A model generated the notes under the pieces. The model had not been told where the DNA came from. It did not search any database and saw nothing but the letters and a program-made list of their open reading frames with translations. DNA of 39,357 nucleotides, taken from Propionibacteriaceae bacterium (GTDB lineage Bacteria; Actinomycetota; Actinomycetes; Propionibacteriales; Propionibacteriaceae). A program made the translations under genes and the position numbers. Positions 1-36,449 of this stretch are shown here, piece by piece (within the stretch, counting starts at the first letter, position 1; each line of letters opens with the position of its first letter). The stretch lies in the NCBI GenBank assembly GCA_031266665.1, contig JAISAO010000006.1, positions 1 through 39,357 on the forward strand, read 5' to 3'.

Positions 1-131
1 CCCGGATGTCCAACACCTCTGCCAGTCACGCCCCCAAGGCAATAACCAGACGCCCCCACCCCGCTCAGCGACTAGGCCAAACACCCCCCTGGGAGACACA
101 CATTTTTGCCGATAACCCTCGTCGTGTTGGT

Positions 132-25705: not shown

Positions 25706-28153
25706 ATGGCAGCCAAGACGACCGGCCGCGACGAGGACTTCGAGCAGCGGATAGTCGACGTCGAGGTCTCCCAGGAGATCGAGGCCAGCTATCTGGAGTA
25801 CGCCTACTCCGTGATCTACTCCCGCGCCCTGCCCGACGCCCGGGACGGCCTCAAACCGGTCCAGCGGCGCATCCTCTACTCGATGGACCAGCTGGGCATC
25901 CGCCCGGACAAGCCCCACGTCAAGTGCGCCCGGGTGGTGGGCCAGGTCATGGGCGTGCTCCACCCCCACGGCGACTCGGCCATCTACGACGCCCTGGTGC
26001 GGATGGCCCAGCCCTGGTCGCTGCGCCTGCCCCTGGTCGACGGCCACGGCAACTTCGGCTCGCTCGACGCCTCGCCGGCGGCGATGCGTTACACCGAGTG
26101 CCGGATGGGGCCGGCGGCGGCCGCCATGACGGCCGACCTGGACTGCGAGGTGGTCGACTTCCGGCCCAACTACGACGGCCGCGAGTCGGAGCCGGTGGTG
26201 CTGCCGGCGGCCTTCCCCAACCTGCTGGTCAACGGGGCCGCCGGCATCGCCGTCGGCATGGCCACCAACATGGCGCCGCACAACCTGATCGAGGTGGTGG
26301 CCGGGCTGAAACACCTTCTGGACCACCCGGAGGCCTCGCTGGACGACCTGATGCGCTTCGTGCCCGGCCCCGACCTGCCGGGCGGCGGCAAGATCATCGG
26401 CCTGGACGGCGTCCGCCAGGCCTACGCCAGCGGCCGGGGGGCCTTCCGGGTGCGGGCCGCGGCCCGGATCGAGCAGGTCTCGCCGAGGCGCAAGGGCATC
26501 GTCGTGACCGAGCTGCCCCACCTGGTCGGCCCGGAGAAGATCATGGAGCAGATCAAACAGCTGCACGACAAGAAAGCCATCCAGGGGGTGGCCGACGTCA
26601 AAGACCTGACCGACTTGAGCCACGGGCTGCGCCTGGTGATCGAGATCAAGAACGGCATCAACCCCGAGGCCATGTTGGAGACCCTGTTCGCCAAGACCAA
26701 GCTGGAGGACTCCTTCGCCATCAACAACGTCGCCCTGGTCGAGGGCCAGCCCCGCACCCTGGGGCTGGTCGAGCTGATGCGGGTCTATCTGGACCACCGC
26801 CTGTCGGTCAGCCTGCGCCGCGCCCAGTTCAAGCTAGCCCGGGCGGCCGAGCGCCTCCACCTGGTGGAGGGGCTGCTGATCGCCATCCTCGACATCGACG
26901 ACGTCATCGCCATCATCCGCCGCTCGGACGATGTGGCCGAGGCCCGGGAGCGGTTGAAGCAGGCCTTCGACCTGGACGACCCGCAGGCCAACCACATCCT
27001 CGACCTGCAGCTGCGCCGTCTGACCCGGCTGTCCAAGTTGGAGCTGGAGAAGGAGCGGGACTCGTTGCAGTCCCAGATAGCCGAATTGTCGGAGATCATC
27101 GCCTCGCCCCAGCGGCTGCGCCAGGTCGTGGCCCAGGATCTGGACGAGGTGGCGCGGCGCTTCGGCACACCGCGCCGGACCGTGCTGCTGTCCGGCGCGG
27201 GCCAGCCGGAGGCCAAGGCGGCGGCCGCCCAGCCGATCGAGATCCCGGACGGCCCGGCCCTGGTGGCCCTGGGGGCGGCCGGCCTGGTGGCCCGCCTCGA
27301 CACCGCCGACAGCCCCGGGGCGGGCGGTCCCAGAGCGGCCCACGATGTGGTCTTGTCGGCCGTCCGCAGCACCACCTTGGGCCAACTCGGCGTCTTGACC
27401 TCGCTCGGCCGGGTGGTTCGCCTGCAGGCCATCGACCTGCCCTCCATCCCGCCCACCGCCGGGGCCGTCAACCTGCAGGGCGGGGCGCCGCTGTCGGAGC
27501 TGGTCGAACTGGCCCCAGGCGAGCGCCCCCTGGGGCTGACCGCCCTGGGGGCCGACGGCCCGGGCTGGGCCTTCGGCACCCGCCGGGGGGTGGTCAAACG
27601 CACCGCCGTGGAATTGTTGTCCAAGCCGGCCTGGGAGCTGATCCGCTTGGACGAGGGCGACGAGGTGGTCGGCGCGCTCGAGTTAACAGAAGGGGCGAGC
27701 GACTTCGTCTTCATCACCTCGGACGCCCAACTGCTGCGCTTCCCGACAGCGGCGGTCCGCCCCCAGGGGCGCGGCGGCGGCGGCATGGCCGGGATCAAGC
27801 TGGCGCCCGGGGCCGAGGTGGTCTTCTTCGGGGCCGTCGACCCGGGCGAGGCGGAGGTGGTGACGGTGGCCGGCTCCTCGGCCGCCCTGCCCGGGACCGA
27901 CGCCGGCACGGCCAAGGTGACGCCCTGCGACCTCTACCCGGCCAAGGGCCGGGCCACCGGCGGCGTCCGCTGCCACCGCTTCCTCAAGGGCGAGGACCGC
28001 CTGCTGCTGGCCTGGGCCGGCTGGGCCCCGGCGGTGGCCACGGCCGCCAGCGGCTCCCCCATCGTCTTGCCCACCCCCGACTCCCGCCGCGACGCCTCCG
28101 GGCTACCGGTCCCCCAGCCGATCGCCGCCATCGGCGCCCGCCGGCTGGACTGA
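25706..28153 (+). CDS. parC: DNA topoisomerase IV subunit A
   Basis: 815 residues. [28 protein letters not shown] opens the breakage-reunion domain, [17 protein letters not shown] (86-102) is the quinolone-determining region with Ser91 and Asp95 at the usual sensitive positions, and MRYTECRM carries the active Tyr129. A long coiled coil (near 430-480) and a C-terminal pinwheel follow; QGRGGGG near residue 690 is a relaxed GyrA-box. The wording of the N-terminus matches actinobacterial ParC better than GyrA, but a gyrase-like paralogue is not excluded. parE is not in the window. AGGAG lies 11 bases before the ATG. Confidence 0.92.
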
Positions 28154-28194
28154 GCCCAGCGGCCCTGGCCGCCGGTTTGAGCGGGACCGCGCTA

Positions 28195-28218
28195 CCCTAC
28201 TTGTAGGGACTGTAGGGA
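28195..28218 (+). promoter_or_regulatory. Operator-like repeats before the AbrB-type antitoxin
   Basis: CCCTAC-TT-GTAGGG (28195-28208) is an inverted repeat, and TGTAGGGA occurs twice in tandem (28202-28209 and 28211-28218). They lie just before the ATG at 28231 and overlap the likely promoter, as expected for an autoregulated toxin-antitoxin operon. GGAG at 28221-28224 serves as ribosome site. Confidence 0.6.
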
Positions 28219-28230
28219 TAGGAGAAGCCG

Positions 28231-28506
28231 ATGGCGCAGCCGGTCTTGATCGAGGTGGCCAAAGTGATGCCTAAGGGACAAATCACGTTGCCCAAGGACA
28301 TCCGCCAGAAGCTCTCGCTGGACACCGGAGACCGGGTGGCGCTGATCTGGGACCAGGACCGGGTGGTGATGATGAACCCGGCCGTGTACGCCATGCGGAT
28401 GCTGCAACGGGATTTGGAGGGGGCCGCCGCCGAGGCCGGCTTCAACACCGAGGAAGACGTTTCCGACCACATCACTCAAATGCGCCGCCAGGCCCGGCGG
28501 GTGTGA
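28231..28506 (+). CDS. AbrB/SpoVT-type antitoxin (VapB-like)
   Basis: 91 residues. AKVMPKGQITLPKDIRQKLSLDTGDRVALIWDQDRVVMM (10-48) is a complete swapped-hairpin AbrB DNA-binding domain. The C-terminal part (MRMLQRDLEGAAAEAGFNTEEDVSDHITQMRRQ) is the usual toxin-binding helix plus tail. Its stop overlaps the GTG of a PIN-domain reading frame (GTGA), the standard vapBC arrangement. Since that toxin is cut off, this antitoxin is now an orphan or acts on a toxin elsewhere. Confidence 0.88.
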   Translation: MAQPVLIEVAKVMPKGQITLPKDIRQKLSLDTGDRVALIWDQDRVVMMNPAVYAMRMLQRDLEGAAAEAGFNTEEDVSDHITQMRRQARRV

Positions 28507-28604
28507 GATACCTACTAGACACCAATGTGCTGGTCTCAGGAATGGGAGAGTCCGAGTCCCGGGAATGGGAGAGTTCGAGTCCTGGGAATGGGAGAGTCGG
28601 CTAG
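28503..28604 (+). pseudogene. Truncated PIN-domain toxin (vapC remnant)
   Basis: The frame starts GTG and reads VRYLLDTNVLVSG, the canonical first strand and first catalytic Asp of VapC. After 12 codons the sequence changes into a 23-bp tandem array that is translated as low-complexity residues to a TAG. The other three acidic residues and about 115 residues of the fold are missing. The break falls inside the codons for VSG, exactly at the first array unit, so the array replaced the rest of the gene. Confidence 0.85.
28536..28600 (+). repeat. 23-bp tandem repeat array, copy 1
   Basis: GGAATGGGAGAG starts at 28539, 28562 and 28585, a strict 23-bp period, with near-identical linkers (TCCGAGTCC, TTCGAGTCC). 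The same unit, also three times at 23 bp, stands before the ATPase at 30056. The array abuts the stop codon of the next minus-strand gene at 28601. It is not a CRISPR array: units are contiguous and there are no spacers. Confidence 0.9.
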
Positions 28605-29737
28605 CCGGCGGTCACCGTCAACGTCGCCCGCTCCCGGCCCAAGTAACGGGCGTAACGGTCGGCCGCCTCGGCCAGCAGGGCCGGATCGGCTAAGCGGCGG
28701 GCCGCCCGGTCGAACCAGTTGACCGCGACGGGGACCGGCTTGTCCTGGGGCAGCCGTTTGAGGCCGCCGCGAGCCAAGGGGCGCCAGACGCCGGCGCAGA
28801 CGCCGTCCACCAGCACCACCGGCTTGAAAATGCCGTTGCCGCCGGGACAGATCAACTGGGCGTGGGCCGGGTCCAGCGTCAGACCGCGGTCGCGGTAGCC
28901 CAACAGGTGCTCGTCGAAGGCCGGCAACAGATCCACCCTGGGTGGCGGGGCCGCGGCGGCCGTGTCGTCGGCCAGGGTGGCGGCCATCCAGTAGACGCCG
29001 CCGTCGGCCGCCTCGACTTGGACCACACGGTCGCCCGCCAGGGCCAGGCCCTCTCGCACCTCGCGCTTGCCCAGCCCCGACCACCAGGCCAGGTCGTCCA
29101 CCGTGGCCGGGCCGTGGGAGTCCAGGTAGCGGGCCGCCAACTCGGCCAGCCCCTCATCGCGCCCCAGGTCGCGAGGCCGGGCCACCCACTCGTCGGCCAG
29201 GACCAGCAGCGGCTGGCCGTCGGCCACCGGCCCGAACAGCAGCGTGCCGGTCTGGGCCAAGATCCAGATCAGGTGGTACTTCCACTGGCCGGACAGTTCG
29301 ATCCCCCGGGCGGCCACCTCGTCCAGCAGGGCCTCCCGGTCGAGCGCCCGCCCGCCGGCCAGCAGCGCCACGACCTGTTCCCGCACCCGCTCGATCTGCC
29401 CCAGGTCGAGGCCAAGACGTGCCCGCCGCCGCTCGGCCGAGGCTCCCAGGACCTTGGCCGAGGTCAGCCGCTGGAGCCAGCCCACGTCCTCGGCCGGGCT
29501 GGCGTGCAAGGTGCCGCGCAGCGGCCACGACCGCACCACCAGCCCGTCTTGATAAGCCCGCTCGACCGCGCCCACGGCCGCGCCGGAACGCAGCCCCAAG
29601 GCCCAGCAGGAGGCCGGGAAGTCCTGGGCCTGCATGGCCAGGAAGCGCCGGGCCACGGCCGCCGGGCCGGCGGCCAGCCCGCCGTCCAACAGCGCTGAGC
29701 GCAACCGCAGGCGGAGCAGATCACGGTCACCGAGCAC
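28601..29737 (-). CDS. Winged-helix DNA-binding protein of the AlkZ-like (HTH_42) family
   Basis: 378 residues. LLRLRLRSALLDGG and RRFLAMQAQDFPAS open the protein; QAQ at 36-38 fits the catalytic Q-x-Q motif of AlkZ-type DNA glycosylases. VVRSWPLRGTLHASPAEDVGWLQRLT, WARPRDLGRDEGLAELAARYLDSHGPATVDDLAWWSGL and VDLLPAFDEHLLGYRDRG follow the family order. Family members such as AlkZ and YcaQ excise bulky or cross-linked alkyl adducts; here repair or self-resistance is inferred. GTG at 29737. Between two 23-bp arrays, it may be part of an inserted segment, and a 166-bp inverted-repeat element lies just upstream of its start. Confidence 0.88.
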   Translation of the reverse strand: MLGDRDLLRLRLRSALLDGGLAAGPAAVARRFLAMQAQDFPASCWALGLRSGAAVGAVERAYQDGLVVRSWPLRGTLHASPAEDVGWLQRLTSAKVLGASAERRRARLGLDLGQIERVREQVVALLAGGRALDREALLDEVAARGIELSGQWKYHLIWILAQTGTLLFGPVADGQPLLVLADEWVARPRDLGRDEGLAELAARYLDSHGPATVDDLAWWSGLGKREVREGLALAGDRVVQVEAADGGVYWMAATLADDTAAAAPPPRVDLLPAFDEHLLGYRDRGLTLDPAHAQLICPGGNGIFKPVVLVDGVCAGVWRPLARGGLKRLPQDKPVPVAVNWFDRAARRLADPALLAEAADRYARYLGRERATLTVTAG

Positions 29738-29746
29738 TCCCCCAAC

Positions 29747-29912
29747 CTAGTGGTCTGTCGCACCTAAAACGTCGGACTCGCGGTGTCGGACGACGCCGCT
29801 GGCGGCGTTGTCGTCACTCGGCGGGCGTCCAGTCCGCCTCCATCCTCCACCTTGCCACCGACACCACCCGACACCGCTCACCACCCAACTTTTAGACGCG
29901 ACAGACCACTAG
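29747..29912. mobile_element. MITE-like element with 23-bp terminal inverted repeats
   Basis: The left end begins CTAGTGGTCTGTCGC (29747) and the right end finishes GCGACAGACCACTAG (29912). Over 23 bases the ends are complementary apart from three positions (29747-29769 against 29890-29912). The 166-bp body has no coding capacity. It contains an internal imperfect hairpin (29789-29815). The termini end in CTAG, so a TA or CTAG target duplication is possible. No transposase is in the window, which makes it a non-autonomous element. Confidence 0.75.
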
Positions 29913-29956
29913 CGGCCAGCCGCCCCGGCCCGAGCGCCGCCGGCCCGGGACGAGCG

Positions 29957-29993
29957 GATCAGATCTATGTGATACCGCAATCAGAATCCGGGA
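29957..29993 (+). repeat. 37-bp direct repeat, left of DUF4143 ATPase 1
   Basis: Matches 31463-31499 at 35 of 37 positions. It includes GATCAGATCTATGT and ATACCGCAATCAGAAT. It leads straight into the 23-bp array, and its last bases (CCGGGA) are also the beginning of the first unit. Confidence 0.9.
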
Positions 29994-30056
29994 ATGGGAG
30001 AGTTCAGGCTCCGGGAATGGGAGAGTTCAGCTACCGGGAATGGTAGAGTCCAGCTG
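29988..30056 (+). repeat. 23-bp tandem repeat array, copy 2, forming the ATPase promoter
   Basis: Three contiguous 23-bp units (29988-30010, 30011-30033, 30034-30056), each beginning CCGGGAATGG. The third ends on the first base of the GTG start codon of the ATPase gene. Units one and two read GAGAGT where unit three reads TAGAGT, so only the last unit supplies a -10 box. Confidence 0.9.
30044..30049 (+). promoter_or_regulatory. -10 box of a leaderless promoter inside the array
   Basis: TAGAGT lies exactly six bases before the GTG at 30056. There is no Shine-Dalgarno. The same spacing is used at 675, 6050 and 34078. Confidence 0.6.
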
Positions 30057-31324
30057 TGGAGTACCGTCGGCGTGTCATCGACCAGACCCTTGACGAGGTG
30101 ATCGGCTCTCTGCCCGCCATCGCCATCGAGGGGGCCAAGGGGGTCGGCAAGACGGCCACCGCGACCCAGCGGGCGGCCGATGTCTTCACCCTCGACCACG
30201 AGGGCGTCCGGCAGACGATCACGCTGGCCCCCGAGTTGGTGCTGCAAGGCCGACCCCCGACCTTCATCGATGAGTGGCAGATGGTTCCCGCCGTCTGGAA
30301 CGAGGTGCGCCACGCGGTCGACGCCGGTGCCCCGGCGGGACGTTTCCTACTGGCCGGATCGGCCACGCCGAGCCCCGGCGCCCGCCTCCACTCGGGAGCG
30401 GGACGCATCGTCCGGCTGGTCATGCGACCGATGACACTGCCGGAGCGGGGCCTGACGACCCCGACCGTGTCGCTGGCCGCCCTGCTGGCCGGCGGCGGTC
30501 CCGACATCGCCGGCCGCGCCGAGTTGACCACGGTGGACTACGTCCGGGAAATCATCGCCTCGGGCTTCCCGGGCATCAGGGCGGCGGACGCGACGGCGCG
30601 GCCGTACCTGCTCGACAGTTACGTCGCCCGCCTGGTCGACCACGACATCGCCGAGGCCGGCGGCGCCGTCCGCCGACCCCAATCCCTGTTGAACTGGTTA
30701 CGGGCCTACGCGGCGGCCACCGCCACCACCGCCTCGTACACCTCCCTGCTCGACGCGGCCACCCCGGGAGACGAGGCCAAGCCGGCCAAGCAGACGGCCA
30801 CGGTCTGGCGCGACTTGCTCCAGCGTCTCTGGGTGCTCGATCCACTGCCGGCCTGGCTGCCCACCGCCTCTCACCTCAAACGGCTCGGCCTGGCCCCCAA
30901 ACACCACCTGGTCGACCCGGCGCTGGCGGCCCATCTGGTCGGCGCCACAGCCGATTCCCTGATACGCGGCCAGGGGCCGGCCCGCCCCGGTGACTCGACC
31001 TTTCTCGGCGCCTTGTTCGAGTCGCTGGCGGCCCAAACCGTGCGCGTGCTGGCCGAGGCCAACCGGGCCCAGGTCTTCCACCTGCGCACCCAGGGCGGCG
31101 AGCACGAGATCGATCTCATCGTCCGCCGCCCCGACGGCCAGGTGGTCGTGATCGAGGTCAAACTGTCCAGCGCCGTCCGACCGGCGGATGTCGCCCACTT
31201 GAACTGGCTGGCCCGCCAATCGCCACACGCCGTCATCGACCGGGTGGTCCTCAACACCGAGCAACGGGCCTACCGCCGACCCGACGGCATCGCCGTCGTG
31301 CCTCTGGGCCTGCTGGGCCTGTGA
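30056..31324 (+). CDS. AAA+ ATPase with DUF4143 domain, copy 1
   Basis: 422 residues from GTG at 30056. The N-terminus EYRRRVIDQTLDEVIGSLPAIAIEGAKGVGKT holds Walker A (26-33), FIDEWQ is the Walker B-like motif, and GSATPSPGARLHSGAGR is the sensor region of the AAA_14 family. The DUF4143 domain follows, and near the C-terminus EIDLIVRRPDGQVVVIEVKLS has the look of a PD-(D/E)xK nuclease-like core. Such proteins are numerous in host-associated Actinobacteria and Bacteroidota; their role is not known. It is related to the protein at 34949-36211. It is flanked by 37-bp direct repeats and preceded by a promoter-bearing repeat array, so it looks like a mobile cassette. Confidence 0.92.
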   Translation: MEYRRRVIDQTLDEVIGSLPAIAIEGAKGVGKTATATQRAADVFTLDHEGVRQTITLAPELVLQGRPPTFIDEWQMVPAVWNEVRHAVDAGAPAGRFLLAGSATPSPGARLHSGAGRIVRLVMRPMTLPERGLTTPTVSLAALLAGGGPDIAGRAELTTVDYVREIIASGFPGIRAADATARPYLLDSYVARLVDHDIAEAGGAVRRPQSLLNWLRAYAAATATTASYTSLLDAATPGDEAKPAKQTATVWRDLLQRLWVLDPLPAWLPTASHLKRLGLAPKHHLVDPALAAHLVGATADSLIRGQGPARPGDSTFLGALFESLAAQTVRVLAEANRAQVFHLRTQGGEHEIDLIVRRPDGQVVVIEVKLSSAVRPADVAHLNWLARQSPHAVIDRVVLNTEQRAYRRPDGIAVVPLGLLGL

Positions 31325-31338
31325 CGCAGGCCCAACGA

Positions 31339-31390
31339 CCAATCAACAACATTCACAGTTTTCAAGCAACAGAACACACGATTAGCGACC
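31339..31390 (-). repeat. Orphan copy of the ATPase 2 upstream region (52 bp)
   Basis: Matches 36221-36272 at 43 of 52 positions, including ATTCACAGTTT and CAACAGAA. At the other site this sequence lies directly upstream of a leftward DUF4143 gene. Here it points leftward into the 3' end of ATPase 1 and has no gene of its own, so it is a relic of a lost or replaced gene. Confidence 0.8.
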
Positions 31391-31462
31391 AGCCTCGCAC
31401 ACACCCCTCGAAGCCTCCGTCCGACCCCCGCCCGAGGCCGCCGCCCCACCGGCCGGCCAGGC

Positions 31463-31508
31463 GATCAGATCTATGTAATACCGCAATCAGAATACGGGAT
31501 TACATAGA
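31463..31508 (+). repeat. 37-bp direct repeat, right copy, extended to an inverted repeat
   Basis: 31463-31499 matches 29957-29993 at 35 of 37 positions. Unlike the left copy, it continues into ATTACATAGA (31499-31508), complementary to TCTATGTAAT (31470-31479). With CCG/CGG inside, the arms are 14 bases with one mismatch around an 11-base loop. It resembles an ATPase leader without a gene. The gap 31325-31542 contains this and the 52-bp relic and no gene that I can support. Confidence 0.88.
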
Positions 31509-31542
31509 AACCAACTCCTGTTCCCACGGTGTCAGGGCCTCG

Positions 31543-32067
31543 TCAAGTCAGTCGCGCCAGTAGGGCGGCCATCTGTGCGGGCGGCTCCGCCATGCCCCGG
31601 CCCACCCAGGCCGCGATCAGGTGGACGACACCCTGCTCGAAGAAGGCGCGGACGTAGTCCAACTGGCGGTCGTCGAGATCCGGGTACCGCTCCCGGCAGG
31701 CCCGCTCCAGCCGGGAGCGCTTGAAGGCGAAGAAACGCTCCACCAGCCTCGAGCCGGGCTGGAGCACGAGCTGGGCGGCGTCGGGATCGGCCGCCAACTC
31801 CCGCAGCACGACCAGCCCGAAGGTGTGGTCGTCCACGGCCTCCGCGCCGCGCAGCGGAGCGGTGAAGCGGTCGAACAACTCGTCCTCGACCTCCTCCAAC
31901 AGTTCGGCCGGGCTGGCGTAGTGCAGATAGAACGTGCCCCGGCTGAGGTCGGCCCCACGGCACAACTCGGCCACTGTGACAGCCGTGATCGGCTTGTTCC
32001 GCAAGGTCTCGATCAGCGCCTGACGCAACGCCAGGCGCGTGTAACGGGTCTTACGACTTTCCCGCAC
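31543..32067 (-). CDS. TetR-family transcriptional regulator
   Basis: 174 residues. The N-terminal HTH is complete (RLALRQALIETLRNKPITAVTVAELCRGADLSRGTFYLHYASPAELLEEVEDELF). The ligand-binding helical domain follows and ends QGVVHLIAAWVGRGM. GTG at 32067 is chosen because AGGAGG (32071-32076 on the minus strand) precedes it by a few bases; the longer frame to 32397 has no support. It is transcribed away from a metallo-hydrolase and a quinone reductase gene. The palindrome at 32332-32345 in front of those is its likely operator, so it probably represses them until a ligand binds. Confidence 0.92.
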   Translation of the reverse strand: MRESRKTRYTRLALRQALIETLRNKPITAVTVAELCRGADLSRGTFYLHYASPAELLEEVEDELFDRFTAPLRGAEAVDDHTFGLVVLRELAADPDAAQLVLQPGSRLVERFFAFKRSRLERACRERYPDLDDRQLDYVRAFFEQGVVHLIAAWVGRGMAEPPAQMAALLARLT

Positions 32068-32078
32068 ACGTCCTCCTA

Positions 32079-32235
32079 AGCCCAGATCCACCGATTCTCT
32101 ACTACCGACCGGCCCCATCCGGGCGCGCTGACGGCACCGCCGACGCTCAACGGACGTCCAGTCCGCCTTCACGCCGACGACACCGCCCACCCGCCTGACG
32201 CCGCTCGCCACGGAGACCATCGGTGGCTCAGGGCT
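32079..32235. mobile_element. 157-bp element with 17-bp terminal inverted repeats
   Basis: The ends AGCCCAGATCCACCGAT (32079-32095) and ATCGGTGGCTCAGGGCT (32219-32235) are complementary at 15 of 17 positions. The left end is identical to that of the 55-bp element at 38795. There is no coding capacity. It sits in the 310-base intergenic region 32068-32377, directly before the tetR ribosome site, and may carry part of that promoter. The interior shares CGTCCAGTCCGCCT with the element at 29747-29912. Confidence 0.65.
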
Positions 32236-32331
32236 GAACACTTCCCGGCGCGGCTGTCCGTTTCCGTCCACCGGCCACCCGTTATGGTCATGGCGCCTCT
32301 CGCCGGCCCAGATTAACATCATGTCAAGTAT

Positions 32332-32345
32332 TAGACACCTGTCTA
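32332..32345 (+). promoter_or_regulatory. Probable TetR operator
   Basis: TAGACA-CC-TGTCTA is a perfect inverted repeat with a two-base spacer in an AT-rich stretch (TTAACATCATGTCAAGTATT) upstream of the metallo-hydrolase gene. Its size and symmetry suit TetR-family dimers, and the only such regulator nearby is the divergent one at 31543-32067. Confidence 0.65.
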
Positions 32346-32377
32346 TTTCCACCGACTCCCAAGGAGGCCCGTCCGAT

Positions 32378-33097
32378 ATGCGGCTCCGCGCCCACAACGG
32401 CTTCTGGCAGCTGACTGGCCTGCCGCGCGTCTTCCCGATCAGCGTCTACCTGGTGGACGACGACGGTCTGACGCTGATCGACACCGGTCTGCCGGCGATG
32501 GCGCCGGGCGTTCTGGCCGCCGCCAGACGCTTGGGCCGACCGATCCGGCGCATCGTCTTGACCCATGCCCACCGCGATCACGCCGGCGCGCTCGACCGGC
32601 TGGCCGCCGCCCTGCCCCGGGCTGAGGTGGCCTGCTCGGCCCGCGAGGCGGCCGTCCTGGGCGGCGACTTGGCCATCCGCCCGGGCGAGCGGGCCAACGC
32701 GACCGGTCGGCTGCCGGGCCGCTTCGCCCCGGCGACGACTCGGCCGACCCGCCTGGTCGGCGACGGCGACCAACTCGGACCCCTGACCGTCGTGGCCACC
32801 CCGGGGCACACGCCAGGCCATCTGTCGTATTTCCACCAGCCGTCCGGCGCGCTGTTCGCGGGCGACGCCCTGCAGACTCGCGGCGGGCTGGCGGTGGCCG
32901 GGGACCGCCGGCCGCTGTTCCCCTTCGTGGCGGCGGCGACCTGGGACCGGGCAGTGGCGGTCGCCAGCGCCCGGAAGATCGCCGGGCTGCCCATCCGCCA
33001 CTTGGCCACCGCCCACGGCGAGGTTCTGACCGACCCCGCCGCCCGATTGCGGGCCGCCATCGCGCGGGCCGCCAGCCAGACGGCCGCCGATGTCTGA
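32378..33097 (+). CDS. Metallo-beta-lactamase-fold hydrolase
   Basis: 239 residues. THAHRDHAG (62-70) is the HxHxDH metal motif. The remaining ligands appear in TPGHTPGHLSYF, FAGDAL and LATAHGE, in the correct order for the fold. LIDTGLP precedes the motif as usual. The substrate cannot be predicted; members include thioesterases, lactonases and glyoxalase II-like enzymes. AAGGAGG (32361-32367) lies ten bases before the ATG at 32378, which decides the start. Its end overlaps the quinone reductase gene by eight bases, so the two form an operon under the divergent TetR. Confidence 0.9.
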   Translation: MRLRAHNGFWQLTGLPRVFPISVYLVDDDGLTLIDTGLPAMAPGVLAAARRLGRPIRRIVLTHAHRDHAGALDRLAAALPRAEVACSAREAAVLGGDLAIRPGERANATGRLPGRFAPATTRPTRLVGDGDQLGPLTVVATPGHTPGHLSYFHQPSGALFAGDALQTRGGLAVAGDRRPLFPFVAAATWDRAVAVASARKIAGLPIRHLATAHGEVLTDPAARLRAAIARAASQTAADV

Positions 33098-34948: not shown

Positions 34949-36211
34949 TCATGGTCCGAGGCAGCCCAGGGGAATCACATGCACACCGTCGTCGCGGGTG
35001 TAGGCCATGGAGGTGGCGGTGACGACGGCCAGCGCCCGGGGCGGGCGCGAAACCCGGTCCGCCAGCGCGATCAGCGAATGGGCCGCTTTCTCCACCTCGT
35101 GCTCTCCCATTTTGACCTCAATGCCCACCCAATCTCCGGCGCGGTCCTCCAAAACGTAATCGACTTCCAGCCGCCCGTCCATCTCCCGGTAGTGAAACAC
35201 TTGCGCTCTCGCCGCCGCGGAGTAGACCTTGAGCTCATGGGCGACAAGGCTTTCGAATAAGTATCCGGTGGTGTTCAGATCGTCCAGCAGGCGTGCTGGC
35301 CCCAGCCCCAGCAACGACACCGCCAGAGAAACGTCGCCCAAATGCCGTTTGGGCGTGGCCGTCAACCGTTTCGAGGATCGGACGGACGGGTCCCAGGCCG
35401 ACACCTCGTCCACGACACGCATACGCCGTAAAGCGTCGAGATAGTCCGTGGCAGCATATCGGCTCGGACCGACCGCTTCGGAGTCCAGGTCGTCGTGGGC
35501 TCGGCGCAGGATCGTGCTGAGGCTGGCCGGATGGGCGGTGAGTTGCGCGTAGGCCTGGAGGAACCGGCGCACCAGACGCGGATTGCGGGTCACACTCGAC
35601 ACCTCGTCGATGTCATGCTCGATGATCAGATCGAGGTATCCGTCCAAGAACACCTGCGCGGCAGACTGGCTGGCCCCCACCAGATAGGGCCATCCACCGA
35701 CAATCATATGGTCTAAATAATCTCGGAACCCGACCGGGCAGTTCACAGGCTCGGAGCCGACGCCGGCTAGCAGCCCGGCCACCGAGACCCGTGGAGACGC
35801 CGACCGCTTCTCGACCAGGGTCATCGTTCGCATCTCCACCACCGCGAAACGACCGGCGCCGGAGTGTCGCTGGACCGAGTCGTCAGGCGTCGCCGAGCCG
35901 GTCAAGATGAATTGTCCCGGACGCCTCCGGTCGTCGACGGCTCGCCGGACGGCGTCCCACACCCGGGGGACCCGTTGCCACTCGTCCAACAGCCTGGGCG
36001 TGGCCCCGTCCAGAATGAGTCTGGGGTCGAGTAAGGCTCGGCGCTCAGCGTTGGCATCGCTCTCCAGCAGCACCTCGCTGGCAGCCCACCGACGGGCCGT
36101 CTCGGTCTTGCCACAGCCTTTGACCCCTTCGATCAAGACTGCCCCCATGGCGCCCAGCCGGGCGTCCAGAAGGCCGTCCGCGACTCGGGGCAAGTAGTCG
36201 GCCGATGGCAC
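34949..36211 (-). CDS. AAA+ ATPase with DUF4143 domain, copy 2
   Basis: 420 residues. GTG at 36211 is chosen because GGAGG lies six bases before it and because the protein then begins VPSADYLPRVADGLLDARLGAMGAVLIEGVKGCGKT, which lines up with the N-terminus of copy 1. Walker A is GVKGCGKT, LLDEWQRVPRVWDAVR the Walker B region, and GSATPDDSVQRHSGAGRF the sensor. The C-terminal RLEVDYVLEDRAGDWVGIEVKMGEHE is the nuclease-like core, and VIPLGCLGP matches VVPLGLLGL at the end of copy 1. The two copies are clearly related but well diverged, so they are not a recent duplication. Function is unknown. Confidence 0.92.
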   Translation of the reverse strand: MPSADYLPRVADGLLDARLGAMGAVLIEGVKGCGKTETARRWAASEVLLESDANAERRALLDPRLILDGATPRLLDEWQRVPRVWDAVRRAVDDRRRPGQFILTGSATPDDSVQRHSGAGRFAVVEMRTMTLVEKRSASPRVSVAGLLAGVGSEPVNCPVGFRDYLDHMIVGGWPYLVGASQSAAQVFLDGYLDLIIEHDIDEVSSVTRNPRLVRRFLQAYAQLTAHPASLSTILRRAHDDLDSEAVGPSRYAATDYLDALRRMRVVDEVSAWDPSVRSSKRLTATPKRHLGDVSLAVSLLGLGPARLLDDLNTTGYLFESLVAHELKVYSAAARAQVFHYREMDGRLEVDYVLEDRAGDWVGIEVKMGEHEVEKAAHSLIALADRVSRPPRALAVVTATSMAYTRDDGVHVIPLGCLGP

Positions 36212-36220
36212 GATCCCCCT

Positions 36221-36272
36221 CCAATCCACAGTATTCACAGTTTCCAACCAACAGAATACACAGTTGGCGACC
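36221..36272 (-). promoter_or_regulatory. Conserved upstream region of DUF4143 ATPase 2
   Basis: On the minus strand this reads through TGTGTATTCTGTTGG, with TATTCT (36253-36258 on the plus strand AGAATA) as a good -10 box about 45 bases before the GTG. The 52 bases match the orphan sequence at 31339-31390 at 43 positions. Confidence 0.6.
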
Positions 36273-36449
36273 CACATCACACACATCTGGACCGGGCGGA
36301 TCACGGCGCGGCGCGCTCCCTGGGATCAAATGACTGGCTCCCAGCCATGGGCCCGTCCCCACGTCAGGACGACCGTCCGGGCGGCCTCCCGCCGGACCCC
36401 AGAGCCAAATTCTTCTTGTCTATCGGTCCCTCGACGCGGCCCGGGGCGG

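Follow-up and report, generated by a model that had tools for sequence, protein, structure and literature searches.

The DUF4143 gene of the analyzed Propionibacteriaceae contig (JAISAO010000006.1 of assembly GCA_031266665.1; 39,357 bp, the whole of which is referred to as the window) is preceded by an array of 23-bp direct repeats that reaches up to its start codon. The best reading of this locus places it in a large family of mobile single-gene units with 22-23-bp direct repeats at the promoter. With moderate confidence, we regard it as a horizontally mobile one-gene module that encodes an ATP-dependent nuclease and carries its own operator array, to which the gene product is probably bound.

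The gene (30056–31324, + strand) begins with GTG and encodes 422 amino acids; its product has AAA_14 and DUF4143 domains. The tandem array, which had been missed by the first-pass annotation, consists of three 23-bp units in register with the start codon (29987–30009, 30010–30032 and 30033–30055; together 29987–30055, + strand), and the third unit directly abuts the GTG. This last unit contains an extended −10 element (TGGTAGAGT; 30041–30049, + strand) located 6 nt upstream of the start codon. At the same position, the two upstream units read TGGGAGAGT instead. A −10 box six nucleotides before the start codon is found in leaderless actinobacterial genes. Should transcription begin at the start codon, which is what the promoter suggests, then the array works as DNA only. 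A search of the region 28000–32500 for known RNA elements gave no Rfam match up to an E-value of 1.

Comparison of 156 distinct genes displayed an array in most of them. An array at a tandem score of 13 was present in 129 genes, with a period of 23 bp in 123 and of 22 bp in 4. The motif TANNNT was located six nucleotides upstream of a candidate start codon in 92 of the 156 genes, and its strict form, preceded by TG, in 54 of 156 compared to none of 476 upstream control windows. In the 101 arrays that could be anchored in this way, TANNNT occurred in register in only 26 of 202 upstream units. As the remaining 176 units are devoid of the motif at this position, most upstream units look like protein sites lacking promoter function.

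About 4 kb from the first unit, the window harbors a second DUF4143 unit on the minus strand (34949–36290). The gene occupies 34949–36211 when the chosen start codon is used, while the longest open reading frame begins at 36304. Its array (36220–36290, − strand) also has a 23-bp period and differs in unit sequence from the first.

Arrays are the rule in the subfamily to which the window gene belongs; nearly all have a period of 23 bp and each has its own sequence. The genome of origin (3.28 Mb in 106 contigs) contains 26 PF13635 matches, three of them short, and an array at a score of at least 13 was found in 16 of its 18 full-length subfamily genes, each with a distinct sequence. A wider set from genus and order comprised 16 genomes; the own genome contributed all of its 26 matches, and the other genomes contributed 27 loci and 60 stretches, a part of the matches counted there. 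Of 125 profile matches, 14 were discarded for want of a recognisable Walker A motif, and merging of duplicates resulted in 110 genes, two of which were left out because of short upstream sequence. Of the 108 upstream regions, 62 had a tandem score of 16 or more, versus 8 of 107 downstream regions. Within the window's subfamily, which is represented by 81 genes of the genus set including one from another family of the order, 60 genes reached this score (56 with period 23, 4 with period 22), compared to 3 of 91 ordinary open reading frames from twelve 18-kb control stretches. No array at a score of 13 was detected upstream of 13 of the 81 subfamily genes. Among the other 27 genes of the genus set, three carried an array at that score.

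The arrays extend beyond the genus. In a GTDB-wide scan evaluated for the best 80 of 436 relatives, a score of 16 was reached by 54 of the 80 and a score of 13 by 66, versus 5 and 9 of 208 control pieces, respectively. Among these best 80, 65 of the 66 arrays at score 13 have a period of 23 bp, and exclusion of five genes of the first set left 49 of 75 at score 16 and 61 of 75 at score 13. Judged by their titles, the best-80 records are mostly from Actinobacteria (Propionibacteriaceae, Tessaracoccus, Nesterenkonia, Cutibacterium and others). One of the four planctomycete records among the best 80 of 436 reaches a score of 13, two of the four being near-identical, and a record titled Gammaproteobacteria has a tandem score of 26. 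Furthermore, 14 plasmid loci picked for spread and three viral contigs were inspected. An array was present in 12 of these 17 relatives, always at a period of 22 or 23 bp, and they include members from Chlorobiota, Bacillota, Bacteroidota, Alphaproteobacteria and Coriobacteriia. The array of Bacteroides ovatus stops some 60 bp upstream of the start codon. A single-contig actinobacterial genome of 3.4 Mb from outside the genus (G168) contains 23 DUF4143 matches and is another genome rich in such genes.

An extension of the rule to all DUF4143 genes failed, as most of the more distant ones have no array. In a phylum-wide sample, an array was found in 5 of the 28 usable best PF13635 matches, while 8 others displayed a palindrome with a score of at least 12 and 15 had neither array nor palindrome. 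A palindrome was also present upstream of 18 of the 37 genus-set genes with a tandem score under 13, versus 5 of 91 controls. At several loci (L030, L044, L073, L077 and others), near-perfect palindromes replace the array before the start codon. Two loci (L054 and L055) contain C-terminal fragments of DUF4143 genes behind what by eye seem to be 23-bp arrays that the automatic score did not flag; they look as if deletions had run from the array into the gene.

The protein encoded in the window matched PF13635 and PF13173 above cut-off (82.9 and 41.5 bits), and all 19 members of the set A2 matched both profiles at an E-value of 0.01. DUF4143 and AAA_14 were the only domains above cut-off in the unit, and no transposase domain was detected. 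The PADLOC profile PDLC04790 (PDC-S01) covered residues 2–420 with an E-value of 1.6e-70. Sequence search up to an E-value of 1 retrieved no solved structure. The AlphaFold2 model has a mean pLDDT of 92.7, and Foldseek ranked the archaeal AAA ATPase 2qen (PABY2304) first (E 3.2e-6) and 2fna (SSO1545) fourth (E 1.4e-4); ranks 2 and 3 were Can2 and Cdn1 with TM-scores of about 0.2. The likeness to the two archaeal proteins is one of fold, but TM-scores were 0.39–0.47. According to Pfam, the fold search and our reading of the alignment, the protein consists of an AAA domain followed by a helical and winged-helix part and a nuclease-like end. The E...D...ExK residues that mark membership in the PD-(D/E)XK group are present in the window's family. 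In 89 array-bearing sequences, D353 and K369 were kept in all 89, E367 in 87 and E322 in 86, and the Walker residues were likewise conserved (86–89 of 89). At the level of sequence, the conservation of the Walker and E322-D353-E367-K369 residues speaks for a working nuclease.

The repeats are private to their genes. Own-genome searches with three arrays gave matches only beside the respective gene, with the exception of one 19-base match at an E-value of 0.13, and two of the three arrays have a second array nearby. The possibility of a dispersed repeat was thereby ruled out for these three arrays. The repeats also diverge faster than the proteins. Mean repeat identity was 0.33 at 50–60% protein identity and 0.57 above 70%. 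A repeat likeness of 33% at 50–60% protein identity fits a fast change of specificity and also fits weak constraint. Based on few pairs, the repeats of paralogues within one genome were not clearly more different than those of equally related genes elsewhere.

The only hint of binding in the sequences is a weak covariation between repeat and protein, which connected residues 244–255 with repeat positions 12–23 and residues 340–354 with positions 3–7 (r 0.17–0.18; permutation 95% levels about 0.13), values obtained with four position sets tried, positions 3–7 picked after the mutual-information result and kinship partly controlled. The residue window 55–66 gave a similar score, and repeat positions 1–11 showed no covariation with protein windows. 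Per-residue mutual information was noisy, and the partial-correlation version yielded weak windows. The helix comprising residues 245–257 is taken for the recognition helix, and residues 340–354 lie beside the catalytic D353.

Related genes share array and open reading frame and almost never their flanks. The comparison took in all pairs whose nucleotide identity over 800 bp was 71% or higher, resulting in 66 pairs that are not independent since they were drawn from 46 genes. In 65 of the 66 pairs, homology stopped no more than 35 bp from the stop codon; the remaining pair consists of near-identical contigs (99.2%). On the upstream side, homology covered one or more repeat units ahead of the start codon in 47 pairs and two units in 35. 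No blastn match outside the unit was found in 61 of the 66 pairs (flanks with a median of 2.8 kb, both strands). The five pairs with flank matches were the near-identical pair, three pairs with matches of 35–64 bp, and the window versus its relative in genome G025. In 13 chosen pairs, the 69 bp before the start codon were 57–81% identical, versus 42–58% for the next 200 bp upstream and 41–59% for 200 bp downstream. In 10 of the 66 pairs, homology did not pass the start codon. Single genes under ordinary transfer would likewise lack common flanks, and only DUF4143 genes were compared. Because homology misses the array in these 10 pairs and the flank comparison covers this family alone, our confidence in the mobile array-gene module was trimmed.

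In the first-pass annotation, two 37-bp direct repeats flanking one complete ATPase gene had been proposed to delimit a gene cassette that can be gained or lost. The repeats (29957–29993 and 31463–31499, both + strand) are real: they are identical at 35 of 37 positions and have the same orientation, and when the own genome was searched with the left copy and its surroundings (91 bases), the right copy was retrieved with an E-value of 2.8e-10. Once gaps are allowed, the similarity grows to 75 bp at 81%. The last 7 bases of the left copy overlap the first array unit. The inverted repeat described as running on from the right copy is present as well (31470–31508). It encloses most of that copy, and 13 positions of its 14-base arms pair by eye. 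No third copy of the 37-bp repeat was found in 19 genus genomes including the own genome when 91 bases around the right copy were used as query. The next-best match had an E-value of 0.0015 and covered query bases 1–30 only, while the repeat corresponds to bases 24–60. The right copy had also been interpreted as the intact leader of a lost gene, which is possible because palindromic leaders stand before other DUF4143 genes, but the copy was absent from the relatives searched.

The notion of a cassette was supported, with different borders. Homology to the closest relatives, G025 and G023, begins at the array and ends at the stop codon, which defines the unit as the 23-bp array plus open reading frame and not as the stretch between the 37-bp repeats. 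The G025 relative is 87% identical over exactly 29987–31325 (1339 bp), its protein being 89% identical to that of the window, and G023 shows 68% identity across the same interval. The 37-bp repeats are secondary to the 23-bp array, which is the decisive repeat, and the 37-bp pair is probably a scar.

An exchanged site in a related genome, one of the observations expected for such a cassette, was found in G025, where the orthologous unit lies directly beside an AlkZ-like gene. In the window, the AlkZ-like DNA glycosylase gene (28601–29737, − strand) adjoins the unit on the opposite side. The G025 unit is located 3′ of the AlkZ-like gene, where the window holds a solo array of three copies of the window gene's 23-bp unit with no DUF4143 gene (28537–28598, + strand). 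Alignment of the window and G025 revealed that the array and the AlkZ-side flank are shared by both and that the gene is absent from the window's solo-array site; the window has its DUF4143 gene beyond the AlkZ-like gene, flanked by the 37-bp repeats. Most simply, this reads as loss from the earlier AlkZ-side place and gain at the present one, and independent gains are the alternative. The G025 unit showed no flank duplication, and an empty version of the present site of the window unit was not found in the related genomes searched. Two other genomes with the AlkZ-like gene (L145 and L147) showed neither a DUF4143 gene nor an array beside its 3′ end. The array of L191 is identical in its letters to that of the G025 locus.

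The solo array cuts a PIN-like toxin reading frame behind an antitoxin gene (28231–28604). The antitoxin gene is of the MazE/AbrB type (28231–28506, + strand) and lies upstream of a truncated open reading frame (28503–28604, + strand), the start of which we take by its motif to be that of a PIN-domain toxin; after about 12 residues this frame reads through the solo array.

Duplicated flanks are not confined to the window. At an E-value of 1e-6 or better, 13 of 101 DUF4143 genes lie between direct repeats of flanking DNA, versus 1 of 91 control genes. True pairs scored up to 93, whereas all of 199 mismatched upstream-downstream pairs stayed at or below 14.8. The sole control gene with a flank duplication (L288, 8886–12453) has one of 60 bp at 87%. 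The duplications around DUF4143 genes are 29–135 bp long and include 104 bp at 95% (L140), 99 bp at 91% (L120) and 83 bp at 90% (L076); at two loci (L032 and L038) the array itself is present on both sides of the gene. Where an array is present, the left duplicate ends between 13 bp inside it and about 220 bp before it, and the right duplicate starts 10–357 bp past the stop codon. By eye, the bracketing repeats differ in sequence among the loci compared, which argues for duplicated host DNA and not for shared recombination sites. Since the duplications vary in sequence, length and position, we read the 37-bp pair of the window (75 bp with gaps) as host DNA duplicated at entry. At L140, the repeated 104 bp look like the 3′ end of the neighboring gene and exist as a single copy in three other genomes together with that gene. 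The other flank is not conserved in these three, one of which (L176) has another DUF4143 gene close by. A clean empty site for L120 was not found. Homing to array-like sites was rejected as an explanation, as the duplicated target resembled the array unit no more than shuffled DNA did (0 of 8 cases).

These results can be combined into a model of the mobile array-gene module. Most likely, the protein would bind its array with one protomer per unit, neighboring protomers being spaced 23 bp apart. Bound in this way it would cover its own promoter, and expression of the nuclease would be held low. Private repeats might prevent paralogues in one cell from controlling one another, and the 37-bp repeats would be host DNA duplicated where the unit entered.

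An ordinary defence gene might instead be carried passively by transformation, plasmids and phages and be integrated by illegitimate recombination, with the array serving as promoter and the duplications as repair scars. We consider this possible though rather unlikely. The variable length of the filler between gene and duplicate, the occurrence on plasmids and a few viral contigs and the status as a PADLOC defence candidate are consistent with it. However, a promoter needs no multiple in-register copies, and 176 of 202 upstream units lack an in-register −10 motif; moreover, the 23-bp period is conserved across several phyla.

It is doubtful that the unit mobilises itself, the nuclease cutting a target with a long stagger, inserting the array-ORF unit and leaving variable duplications, with solo arrays as footprints of excision. 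The unrelated contexts of the units, the flank duplications at 13 of 101 genes, the solo array at the position matching the G025 unit and the conserved nuclease site point in this direction, but duplications of 29–135 bp with 10–357 bp of filler suit the capture of random fragments equally well, the targets were unlike the array unit in 8 of 8 cases when compared with shuffled sequence, and the protein of the unit is devoid of a transposase domain.

A more speculative and distinctly improbable version holds that the nuclease is kept on its private array, which silences gene and enzyme alike, and is freed when array and protein become unbalanced, so that the array acts as a DNA antidote. Phage takeover or loss of the locus may trigger such a release. 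Arrays without a gene could then represent orphan antidotes, and insertion accompanied by long staggered duplications could be driven by this nuclease as well. Finally, the view of the 37-bp pair as a functional site at which homologous recombination removes or adds the gene, although compatible with the common orientation and 35/37 identity of the two copies, is very improbable given that no further copy was found in the 19 genomes searched, that the other bracketing repeats are by eye unrelated in sequence and that the G025 homology begins at the array and not at the 37-bp copy.

The mobile array-gene module shares single features with several known systems. Iteron-controlled plasmid replication genes have direct repeats of about 22 bp beside or in the promoter, which are bound by the gene's product. 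The window's family likewise has 22-23-bp direct repeats beside the gene, whereas the window's unit encodes an ATPase-nuclease and no Rep domain. In REPIN-RAYT systems a gene is tied to its own repeat; in contrast, the repeat of the window's family is not dispersed, as examined for three arrays in the own genome. Homing endonuclease genes are compact one-gene nuclease units that spread horizontally. They differ from the present family, in which likeness between duplicated target and array unit was seen in 0 of 8 cases; the array would be the recognized sequence only by inference. Unlike insertion sequences and other DNA transposons, the window's unit lacks a transposase domain and the length of the duplications is not fixed (29–135 bp).

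A close counterpart is PDC-S01, described as a fusion of an ATPase with a PD-(D/E)XK-type domain and as the fourth most common defence across all prokaryotes (PMC12988326). Most such phage-defence candidates still await validation, according to the same paper (PMC12988326). The window protein, with its ATPase and PD-(D/E)XK-type domain, is a full-length match to the PDC-S01 profile. It differs in its array, in the privacy of this array for each gene and in the travelling array-ORF unit, none of which appears in the accessible parts of the published description. Among open-licence papers, none reporting an array of DUF4143 or PDC-S01 genes was found. The finding applies to a large branch of a gene family that is very common and unexplained, and the private array gives a first handle on the control of a highly abundant candidate anti-virus gene. 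The 156 collected genes, of which 129 carry an array at score 13, provide natural protein-repeat pairs for learning a recognition code.

Two further repeat families were observed near the unit. The segment 29747–29912 is an element with 23-bp inverted ends and CTAG at both tips; it occurs at no fewer than ten other places of the own genome at 87–92% identity and looks like a MITE. Another short repeat family is represented at 32075–32241 and was found at five or more places of the own genome at 85–89% identity.
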